From assembly GCF_019059575.1 (NCBI RefSeq), contig NW_024882877.1, positions 114,719-178,718 of the forward strand: a stretch of 64,000 nucleotides of DNA, written 5' to 3'. Below are positions 27,001 through 45,000 of this stretch, one piece after another. Source of the DNA: Amphibalanus amphitrite (lineage: Eukaryota; Arthropoda; Thecostraca; Balanomorpha; Balanidae). The notes under the pieces are model-generated. The model made no database searches. It worked only from the letters and a program-made list of their open reading frames with translations, and was not told where the DNA came from. The position numbers were made by a program, and so were the translations under genes. Positions within the stretch are counted from its first letter, which is position 1, and every line of letters begins with the position of its first letter.

Positions 27001-30000
27001 CAGGAAATGGAAGCGAGGCATATCTCGCATCGCTACCCTCTGCCACAGCATCAGACAACTCATGACCTGCGCAGTCCCGGCTCACAAACCGCACCAAATC
27101 TGGGAAGTTTCATGAGTAGGACGTCCTGTTCTGTACGATGTGCGCCACTCACGTCACTACCAACACCCACCGCGTCACAAACGACTTCTCAGTCGGAGCT
27201 GTGATCCGAGTAAACGTCGCTGTAAGTCCGGGTCAACCATTGGAAGGAGTAAACCATGCAGAAAACCACCCAAAGCGGCGCCCTTCCTAGATCCGCTTCG
27301 GGAAAATACACGTGACCAGTGCAGGCGGGGCCAGGATATGTCACGTGCTACATTTAGTGCCAAACGCTAGCGTTCATTCCACCCATGGTAAGTCCGCAAA
27401 GAGGTATGAAGGTTATACATTCTGACAGCCATGGAGCTTGCCACTGACCAAACACAGAGAGCTCCCACCCACGATCACAAAATGTCACTCACATAAATAA
27501 TTGCTCCCATAACGCACGGACGACTCCAGCCTCAGCTGGACGTGTCTCATCCCCACTGACCACCCACCGTTCTCCGTACAAGCTCAGGACCGCCGTCACC
27601 GCTCCCTCACCTGAGCATCCACGCTGATGAAGCTGAGCGTCTTGGCGAACCCTTCCATCAGCAGCAGCAGCTGAAAGTGCAGCTTGTAGACGGTCCGGCA
27701 CAGCTCGATGTACGTCTCATCCAGTGGTCCGGGAGCGTCTCCGGACCCACTCAGCGGGACCGTGGTGCGGACCACGTCCAAACACTGCCCCAAAGGTCAC
27801 CGGACCGGTCAGAGGTCACGGCTCAGGTCAGAGGTCACGGGACGGGTCAGAGGTCACAGCTCAGGTCAGAGGTCACGGGACGGGTCAGAACCCGGCGGGG
27901 AGGCGATGAATTACATCACCGGGGACACAGGACTGAGCACTGAGTCTGAATGACAAATCACGCCACAAAGTCGTCACGCATTCACGTCTTGTAACCACCG
28001 TAATTGGGCGACTTGGTGACGAGCTACAGAAATACACAATCCACTGGGCCTGCGGGGTTACACAGCAGTCGACCGACCGAGCAAAACCGACGGTAGGCTG
28101 GTCACGCGTTGACGCACGTCGGAGAACAGAGCTCCAAACGCCGGCCACGTTCGTCACATCATAGCGGCGGTTGATTCAATTGATCGAGGCCGAAACAAAA
28201 AGATTCAAACACCAAAGGCCCAGTGAAGTTTGGTCTTAGATGTGCTGTCGTCAAACTCATAAAGTTGCTAAGATTCAATCAGCCTCTACCCACGGCTCAT
28301 GTCAGATTTTACTGCGTTCATATTTTGGTAACTCGACCGAATACGATGGGTCTCGATGGGTAGTGTACGATGGGTATCGGATATTGTGGTATTTGTTACG
28401 CACACACAATTGCCCGCAACTATCAGCATAAAACAACGACAAACATTTGCTAACCACAAATAAAACGTTACAAATCACAGCCACGTAACCGTTTACAATG
28501 CATCCGCCCACCTACATTGGCTGTGGTGTAAAATATCATACCGGACTACTCCAGCGCTCCACGACTCTACCCCTGACTAACCACCTACATCCCGCTTCTG
28601 AGAGCAGCTGACCTACCCTGAGCAGGTGCTCCCGCCGCTGCTGGTAGCAGCTGACCTACCCTGAGCAGATGCTCCCGCCTCTGAGAGCAGCTGACCTACC
28701 CTGAGCAGATGCTCCCGCCGCTGGTAGCAGCTGACCTACCCTGAGCAGATGCTCCCGGCGCTGGTAGTAGCAGCTGACCTACCCTGAGCAGGTGCTCCCG
28801 CCTCTGATAGCAGCTGGCCTACCCTGAGCAGATGCTCCCGGCGCTGCTGGTAGCAGCTGACCTACCCTGAGCAGGTGCTCCCGCCTCTGATAGCAGCTGG
28901 CCTACCCTGAGCAGATGCTCCCGGCGCTGCTGGTAGCAGCTGACCTACCCTGAGCAGGTGCTCCCGGCGCTGCTGGTAGCCCTCCAGGTGCTCCTGCAGC
29001 TCCAGGAAGGTGAACCGCAGTTTGGGCAGCACTCCGAGCGCGGCCAGCATCTCGCCACTGGCGTACACGTGCGGCAGCTCGAGCGACTGCAGCGTGGCCA
29101 CCACCACCTGGAGAGGCACATCGGCGTGGAGTGAGAGAGCCGTGGGTGAGGGAGAGAGAGAGAGAGGGGGGGCAGGGGGACACGGAGTGAGAATCGTGGG
29201 TGTCACGAGGCACAGAGGGACACAGGAAAAGGCGGAAGGTGTGCGAGAGAGAAGGTAAGGGGACATGAGGACCGAGGTTGTAAGAAAGGTGGTTGTGAGA
29301 AAGATGCAAAAATGACACAGGGCGGGGTGGCGACGGGTGAGGAACCAGTATCACAGCCGGCGACCTAAGATAAAGGATAAATGGACACGGGGTCGGACGG
29401 TGGACTGGATGTGCCGCACAGGCAGCGAACCGTATAAAAAAAAAACGCAAAACGCATCCAATAGCAGAGCATTGCAGAATATAGCCTGCCTAGCCGGATT
29501 GGTCTGCTACGCTCAGTGCTGGAGAATACGTGACAATCTGACATACATAAGTCGTGCTGGACTGACGTCCAAATGCACTACGCGGTCGAATTTTATTGAA
29601 TCCGCATCAATCAAAAGCTGTGACACGCCAGAAAGTCTCGTGAAAATACATCGATCACCAATGTAACGATCATGGAATATGCATTAAAAGAATCTATCCA
29701 TAATTGTATTCACTTGTACATTCGAGGAAATTATGCAGGACATCAGACCATCTCTTGATGGAAATTATCCAGTCTGTTAGCACCAGGAACAAACTTCAAT
29801 AGCACTATTGTTTTCTATCAGGATATTGTTCGGCGCTTGAGTGGACCCAAAAAGCTTTTACGAAGTCGGTCGACTTTTTTCTTCCCCAGCTGACGTAAGT
29901 AAAGCTGTCGAGGTCGTGAAGCGACGCACACCTGTAACGCTGACGCGCTACATTTTAAACGAGTATTTCCAAAATTCTCTCATGGCGACGACGGCGTGTG

Positions 30001-42000: not shown

Positions 42001-45000
42001 GGCACCCTCAACTCAGGGGATAACTTAAGAACAATAGACGCACAATTGTGAGATTTCGCTGGAACATTGATTGATAGACATTTTTGAGATTTCGTTAGAA
42101 TATAACAGAGGGAGCGTAGGCAGAGAGAAACATCAGGCAACCTTTTAATATCCCACCGTGAATGCCCACCAACCCTGTGACCCATGCCGCTGTACTGTGT
42201 GTAGCAGTCTATGTGCCCGCCAGTGAATGACCAGCCTCGCACACACACTGATCAGTAGCCCGACACCCCGCTACACACCTTTATAAATCTGCCTACATAC
42301 TCCAAAGGTTATTGCATCCAAGGTCGGCGTTACTGACCACTCGGATATACCTTTTCAACGATGAAAGGTTACAAAGCCAGCCTGGCAGTGCAGGCTGGTC
42401 ACGCCAAATACGACCGGCTTGGGTCAGGAGAACCTTTCGCGTGGGTCGATGTGAGTTCACCTGACCTCAGTCAATATTAAATTCCTGGAGGCACTGAACC
42501 TAGTGATACGATTTTTCGCATTCGCTAAAAATTCGATGATAAACTGTTAATTTAATGCACATCTTGAATGGCAAATTCCCCGGCTGCGGTAATTCTGGGC
42601 TATCTAGGTATATAATTCTTCAACGGTGGGAAAGCTAATTAAATATCCCATCCTCTCTCCCTTTCTCTCTCTCTCCCTCCCTCTCACCTGGAGCGCCTCA
42701 CAGAGCGGCCTGGCCACCTGTACGATGACCAGCTGATGTCTACAGTCGTCCAGCGCTGCCGCCAGCGAGCGACGCATGTCGGCCAGCAGTTTACAGAGCT
42801 GCAGCAGGGCGGACGAGGCGGCGGAGGGCGGCGCCCCCTCGGCCATCAGAGCGGCCACCTGCTGCTGCCACTGCTCCTCGGCGTCCGTGGGAGCCGCGCC
42901 GCCGCCAGACGCCTCCTGGCACAGCGGGAGGAGGGTCAGTGGGGAGGGCGAAAGTATCACCATGAGGTAGCTGCATGGTCATAACAGCTACAAGCCTTCT
43001 TAGGACAAAAAAGGTATAAGATAAAAATAAAAAACCTTACACGAGGTTAGTATACGTCTAAATTTTAATGCCACTCTTGAGCGATTAGTGTCTAAGGTAA
43101 GCCTCACGAACAACGGGATCGAGACACGTATTCACGATAAGAAAAACGTGAAGTGTTAGTGAGAGCGAAAAGTCTGAGATCGAATAGCGATGAGGCTCAG
43201 CTCCCAGCGGCCACTCACGGCGAACGCATCCAGTAGGTGTCCGAGACTTGGCGAGGCGTTACAGGGCGTCAGGTCGGCCGTGTTCTCGTGGCTGCTGACG
43301 TGGCTGCCCGTTCCGGACGACTCAGACGACTCTGAGGCGCGCCGCTCCCGGGATAGACGGCTGCGGGGGAGAGGTATGTATATATGTGATGACTTGAGGT
43401 ACACTCAACTATGGTAAATCGTCGCGATAGTTTGAGAACCGTGAGCTCCCACTAAATCGGATCAATTGATATCATAGTTAGCGGAGGTCAATCACACGCC
43501 CAAGCATGGCTTCGTGGCAGCGCAGCAAGCGCACTCTTCTGAAGTACCTTCCACAATAACGAGCGGCAAGCCGTATTTGCATTCGTATATGAAACACACA
43601 TTCTACTCACTACTTTTCCCAGATCAGCGCGCGCGCACGTCAGCAGAAAACCCACTACTAACAAACATTAGCATTCACCAGCCGTCGTCACAACTCCCAC
43701 GGTGAGTAACCCTGCCAGAATGAATGAAACCAGACCCAGTCATTCCCATCCACCAGACAATAGCATCATCAGACCGCGCGTCACCGCCCCAGCCTTTTGT
43801 ACAGTGAGGTAATTATGGGTAGCCCGCTCGGAGAACCGACCTACGCGCAATGGAGCAGGACTGACGCGACCGTCCACGCACCTTGTTACGCTGTTCGATG
43901 TACCCACTCGTAACGGGGGATACACCGGACGTCTGACCCGCGCCGTCATTCAGAAAGATACACTAACTACCCAACCCGCGCCCCTATTCAAAAGATACAC
44001 ATCCCGTTATTCGACCCCGTCCGCCATCTCCTCACAGCGCTGAACGAATGGCACTGACGTGGAGCCGTCAACAGGCCGGATCAGCACGGAAAATCCAGAC
44101 CCAGTGTGATTCTATCGGCTGTACCGGAGTTAACAAGCCGGGTTTTGGTAATCAGAGCAGCGCAGGCGATTGAAAGGACGTATACCTGTGCAAAACAGAG
44201 TGAATAGGAGGCGGCCGCATTCCACGAATCTAACTAGTGTCATGCTTTGCCGTGAACACTGGTTCAAATAGAGCCAAACCGGCCATCCCGTGAGACTTCT
44301 CAAAGCTAATTGGATGAAGCGCTTCATTTGTGCTAACTGTGGTTCTGTGTCGCCAGACAGTCTGGTCGGATCCCGGATCTCATGACCTTGTGGCCAGACT
44401 GCCAGCCAAAAGCTGTTCAGTGTTCATCCCAACACAGCCCACCAATGGCGCAGTGGGGTGCTCTGAAAACGGAGCAATTAGTGCATGCGTCACCGCACCA
44501 CTTGATGGCTGTATTCACACAACGAATACGTCAGAGCAAAACTTGAAAAGGCACTGTTAGGCTGGGTGCAAGAACACGACTCGAATGGACAAGCGGTATA
44601 TTTTGAGACAGATCTCATTTCTTGCGATGCACATACGTTACATGTTTTGGATGTAGTCTGAACTGATAGCCTTCTCTGAGCAAGGCTTGTGATGCAAGAC
44701 CTGAATCAACCCAGAACGAGGTGCGCACAAGCTTCTTTAATTATATTTGGACAGCACTACGCACATGTTCCTCGATAAACATAACTGAGCGGAGGGCATG
44801 CATCGGTCGAGTGCAAATGTCATCTTCAGTACCATTTAACGGAGTTGATTCAATGAGTTTCGCTAAGTCAGGGTTATCCAGAGTGGTAAATACTAGAGCT
44901 ATTACGTAAGGAGTACGGAATCGTGTTGTAAGTAGCACTGACGTCACAGTCGCAACGTGACCTACAGTTGAGACGGAGTCACTGCTCGACGGAAACACTC

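Follow-up and report, generated by a model that had tools for sequence, protein, structure and literature searches.

What kind of element has long terminal repeats (LTRs) three times as long as the sequence between them? Such a structure lies in a 64,000-nt stretch of the genome of the barnacle Amphibalanus amphitrite (contig NW_024882877.1 of assembly GCF_019059575.1, positions 114,719-178,718, forward strand), referred to here as the window, in whose coordinates all positions are given. We conclude that it is very probably a non-autonomous LTR retrotransposon of recent insertion, belonging to the large retrotransposon derivatives (LARDs) and copied in trans by a partner element that is probably of Gypsy type. 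The argument that this is more than chance is the exact joint fit of its ends, its target-site duplication and its primer site.

The element is flanked by a 4-bp target-site duplication, CACC, at 29929..29932 and 42276..42279. Between the two copies lie the 5′ LTR (LTR1, 5,276 bp, 29933..35208), an interior of 1,780 bp (35209..36988) and the 3′ LTR (LTR2, 5,287 bp, 36989..42275), giving a ratio of LTR to interior length of 2.96. The element and all the features of it described below are on the plus strand, while the duplicated CACC is assigned no strand. Both LTRs have the form TGTAACG...CGCTACA; they share the start TGTAACGCTGAC and the end CACCCCGCTACA, and their tips (TGTAACG and TGTAGCG) therefore form a short imperfect inverted repeat. 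Aligned by BLASTN the two LTRs are 99.5% identical over 5,292 alignment columns, and the match extends 2 nt beyond the terminal TACA because CA happens to follow both copies. The rest of the window contains no match to LTR1 or the interior at E 1e-3 in BLASTN or E 1e-4 in TBLASTX, both run with low-complexity sequence filtered out. The direct LTRs with their TG...CA ends, the 4-bp duplication and the 5′ primer site place the element in the order of the LTR retrotransposons, for which a duplication of 4-6 bp is given as the rule (PMC12440569; papers cited by PMC number are used here for excerpts of their text). A first-pass annotation of this DNA had drawn the element at 29929..42279, with 5.28-kb LTRs, a 1.78-kb interior, TGTA...TACA ends and CACC on both outer sides, and each of these agrees to the base with what we find.

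Five nucleotides (CAATT) past LTR1 there is a putative primer-binding site of 18 nt, TGGCGCCCAACGTGGGGC, at 35214..35231. It was proposed earlier as a tRNA-Lys site, and its letters are exactly those printed as the tRNA-Lys1,2 site in the excerpted text of two papers (PMC1084362 and PMC8775094); on this identity of letters we assign it to tRNA-Lys1,2. The site is unique in the window, the next best on either strand matching at 14 of 18 positions. Near the other end of the interior are a hairpin with a 9-bp stem, TTAGTCGCG-GGGG-CGCGACTAA (36948..36969), and a polypurine tract, A8GAGG (36968..36979). The hairpin is not strong evidence by itself, because its region folds only somewhat better than shuffled sequence (14 of 200 shuffles fold at least as well).

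Is the insertion recent? Most of the differences between the LTRs fall in a CT microsatellite (32437..32649 in LTR1, 39491-39715 in LTR2), including an indel of 12 nt. Outside this tract there are just two substitutions, both transitions (30899 G/A and 33863 T/C), together with indels of 3, 1 and 1 nt. Two substitutions in ~5,063 bp correspond to 0.04% (Poisson 95% range 0.005-0.14%). LTRs as nearly identical as these fit the recent insertion proposed at the outset.

Seventy open frames of at least 50 amino acids overlap LTR1 and the interior, of which the Pfam scan took 66 and left out four over the CT tract. These 66 of 70 frames yielded no recognisable domain of gag, protease, reverse transcriptase (RT), RNase H or integrase, so that the earlier statement that gag and pol are absent holds at the level of Pfam. 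Four Pfam families, none of them gag or pol, each matched a single frame with E of 0.0013-0.039 (TIL at 0.0013), and were set aside as chance. The longest frame of the LTR is reached in length by 71 of 200 local dinucleotide shuffles, and the longest of the interior by 108 of 200. Taken with the way in which ends, duplication and primer site fit together, the lack of recognised gag and pol domains supports a non-autonomous retrotransposon, which probably moves using the enzymes of another element.

How might it do so? The copying in trans that we propose follows the standard cycle of LTR retrotransposons. Host RNA polymerase II would start in LTR1 and stop in LTR2. The transcript would comprise roughly one LTR and the interior (7,056 nt) together with the terminal repeat R, ~7.1 kb plus R in all. 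This RNA would be packaged by the Gag of an autonomous partner, after which tRNA-Lys1,2 may prime minus-strand DNA at 35214-35231 and the purine tract near 36979, before LTR2, may prime plus-strand DNA. The integrase of the partner, cutting with a 4-bp stagger, would then have inserted the DNA and duplicated CACC. We infer the transcription, the packaging in trans and the partner itself; that the partner may be of Gypsy type is a guess from two features, the 4-bp duplication and the TG/CA ends. The mark of Gypsy elements (Metaviridae) is a gag-pol with RT ahead of integrase, and no gag or pol was recognised in the element itself.

The window contains a Gypsy element of its own, at 11620-17372, with 266-bp TG...CA LTRs (11620-11885 and 17107-17372), a 4-bp duplication ATAG and a long open pol frame. 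It shows that insertions with such ends and duplications occur in this genome. Searched in pieces, its pol matches RT, RNase H and integrase zinc-finger domains above the cut-off, and protease and integrase-core domains below it. Its gag is unrecognised by Pfam, and a frame of 354 amino acids lies upstream of pol.

Some observations weigh against a non-autonomous, recently inserted element with a partner of this type. A hairpin and a purine tract had been noted before the second repeat, and while both are present the tract is not adjacent to LTR2, stopping 9 nt (CCAATAAAA) short of it. Only one full copy of the element is in view in the 64-kb window. Near-identical LTRs could also be produced by gene conversion. 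A gag too divergent for the Pfam models would escape the scan; the 354-amino-acid frame of the Gypsy element likewise drew no Pfam match. That element is not an obvious partner because its primer-site region differs. A search with the frame that spans the junction of the interior with LTR2 gave no relative, all 73 candidates having E above 0.1.

What occupies 5.3 kb of LTR? The GC content along the LTR swings from 0.33 to 0.66 in 250-bp steps. A unit of 102 nt with sharp ends occurs twice per LTR at a spacing of 540 bp, its copies (33787..33888 and 34327..34428 in LTR1, 40853-40954 and 41393-41494 in LTR2) being 93% identical. The predicted folds of the two copies have a common closing stem and differing interiors, with z of -1.1 and -3.2; given this difference and the mixed strength we make no claim of a structured RNA. 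Rfam gave no match at the gathering threshold in the window, and three matches in the element with E of 0.62 to 5, all below gathering. An origin of the repeat region in rRNA, suggested by its look, is thus without Rfam support. LTR1 also holds two TATA-like motifs (TATTTATA at 32693..32700, and another from 31629), two copies of TGACGTCA, presumably CRE-like (32068 and 32963), one AATAAA (32352) and eight ATTAAA. The TATA-like and CRE-like calls are motif matches made without a test against chance, and these motifs and the 102-nt unit are leads rather than functions.

Near its start each LTR contains an ATG-to-stop frame (29982..30506 in LTR1, 37038-37562 in LTR2) that is probably non-coding. 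Among 2,994 scored candidates from a search of ~5.8 billion proteins it has one relative, P0122, of 167 amino acids from a 1,054-bp ENA contig, with 71% identity over 91%. Counted by hand on the alignment, 74 of the first 78 residues and all of the last 42 (42/42) agree. In its middle part P0122 follows the window mostly in the two alternative reading frames. Here the DNA is kept and the frame is not. Judged from this alignment P0122 is therefore a further, divergent copy of the start of the LTR on a different contig, and its middle argues against a conserved protein. The frame is unlikely to be a gene, being no longer than shuffles provide. Scans of viral contigs found no relative of the LTR start, the LTR frame or the pattern of LTR end plus primer site, and scans of prokaryote genome contigs found none either, as expected of an animal element.

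Could the giant LTR nevertheless be cargo in its own right? It might encode a small basic protein of ~170 residues (frame 29982-30506), and the remainder might carry repeated domains that act for the element as RNA. This would be an animal element whose LTRs, rather than its interior, hold the content under selection. P0122 shares the starting ATG and the last codon despite the frame changes between them, which speaks for such a protein. Against it count the length of the frame, not above shuffles, and a middle not kept in frame; moreover, copies without an open frame would escape a search of predicted proteins. We consider the idea improbable.

Three further explanations bear on how the structure arose. 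Near-perfect direct repeats can also arise when a 5.28-kb segment is duplicated in tandem around a 1.78-kb spacer, either in the genome (a segmental duplication) or in the assembly, but the limits of these repeats carry TG/CA ends and a 4-bp duplication, and the 18-nt tRNA-Lys1,2 site follows the first repeat by 5 nt. Because repeat limits, ends, duplication and a perfect primer site all coincide, an origin of this kind is very improbable. A different question is whether the LTR of an otherwise ordinary element has grown by nested insertion or by capture of host DNA, a process compatible with a LARD-like element copied in trans. The GC-rich blocks and swings in composition, the CT microsatellite and the sharp-ended duplicated 102-nt unit are what such growth might leave behind. 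Yet we recognised nothing nested in it that has both clean ends and a duplication, and the only inverted pair of at least 20 nt listed in LTR1 and the interior is 21 nt long and 81% complementary. We regard growth of this type as a tentative possibility.

Alternatively, a coding element whose LTRs are naturally 5.3 kb long may have given rise to this derivative by a single internal deletion, and the product would have been copied in trans once or twice without founding a stable LARD family. This overlaps with the interpretation that we favour, since both describe a non-autonomous element. With only one full copy seen, and no relative of the 3′ end of the interior found, a family need not have this interior in common. 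Set against this, no recognisable remnant of gag or pol borders a deletion point, and the LTR and the interior are both unlike those of the Gypsy element in the window. On balance we find a deletion derivative unlikely, and prefer a recent, non-autonomous element of the LARD kind.

How does the element compare with those already known? Sukkula of barley, a LARD, reportedly has LTRs of ~4.5 kb and a core of 3.5 kb (the description being ascribed to Kalendar et al. 2004). LARDs such as Sukkula resemble the element in having no coding capacity and a presumed mobilisation in trans, whereas the element differs from Sukkula in its LTR three times the interior, its tRNA-Lys1,2 primer and its crustacean host. 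In excerpted reviews, LARDs are described as protein-less LTR elements that are assumed to depend on autonomous ones (PMC7215508; also PMC6431247). The element shares their long LTRs, and lacks gag and pol coding capacity at the level of Pfam in 66 of 70 frames. LARDs also form multi-copy families that conserve an interior or an RNA structure; on this point there are the single relative of the LTR start and the lack of any for the frame across the junction of the interior with LTR2. Terminal-repeat retrotransposons in miniature (TRIMs), such as PbTRIM of the red harvester ant (in the excerpt of PMC3532108), are likewise non-autonomous LTR elements of arthropods, but they are described as having short LTRs and almost no interior (PMC7215508), and LTRs of 5.28 kb with an interior of 1.78 kb rule out membership. 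LTRs of several kilobases are found in Ogre (1.9-6.5 kb, according to PMC6431247) and Retrosat2 (>3.2 kb, according to PMC3485330), which unlike the element are protein-coding and have plant hosts. Closer by host are the Troyka LTR retrotransposons of barnacles, of which non-autonomous forms exist (as excerpted from PMC12440569). These have CG...CG ends and 3-bp duplications (PMC12440569), and the TG...CA ends and 4-bp duplication of the element rule out that it is one of them.

The first-pass annotation had called LTRs three times longer than the interior very unusual, and had placed the large-LTR derivatives described so far mainly in plants. The former stands, the ratio of 2.96 being extreme. 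The latter is weakened by LARD annotations in animals: LARDs and TRIMs together are given as 9.57 Mb, or 4.09%, of the honey bee genome (excerpt of PMC4028053), and 28 LARD contigs are reported from a caecilian (excerpt of PMC8498967), although in both cases these are pipeline labels. Since LARDs have already been annotated in animals, the element is probably a new member of the LARDs with an extreme 3:1 ratio of LTR to interior. It is unusual in proportion and in host, and ordinary in kind. A literature search, in part through excerpts and with most subscription journals and Repbase outside its coverage, returned no characterised crustacean LARD, and it returned nothing on a crustacean gypsy element with a tRNA-Lys primer-binding site.

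Should the element prove to have a family of such copies, it would show that LTRs three times the length of the interior are no bar to replication in an animal retrotransposon. In the standard cycle the minus-strand strong-stop DNA spans R and U5, which here could be kilobases, and the plus-strand strong-stop DNA must copy a whole LTR, here 5.3 kb, before strand transfer. The length of retrotransposon RNA is said to be limited to ~10 kb in the excerpt of one review (PMC6431247). As the RNA includes the LTR roughly once, the genomic RNA of ~7.1 kb plus R would lie below this limit. A hypothesis suggested by this is that RNA length, rather than coding content, is what derivatives of this sort retain. 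Elements of this type may be missed by annotation pipelines that set upper limits on LTR length.

The window contains other repeats. A Penelope-like element at 562-5352 has an RT frame (1626-4034) that matches the A. amphitrite LOC122370546 protein at 99% identity across 94% of the frame, which by itself points to this barnacle or a near relative. A second frame (4552-5349) has a GIY-YIG match that barely exceeds the cut-off; the element also contains an inverted partial copy, 562-1761 against 3232-4424, at 98%. A tandem duplication of ~0.67 kb (95%) at 46983-48325 has an 81% relative on the other strand at 6132-6669. Two inverted pairs, each 94% identical, adjoin one another: one of ~0.6 kb (48755-49355 and 51484-52079), and one of ~0.9 kb whose arms are 11 kb apart (50363-51279 and 62489-63398) and which contains TGACC-type minisatellites. 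Lastly, the frame at 56325-56960 on the minus strand weakly matches the Furry C-terminal domain of Pfam, scoring 26.5 bits where the cut-off is 25.9 (E 2.9e-6); it is one of 2 frames out of 61 that match this domain, and is perhaps one exon of a host gene.

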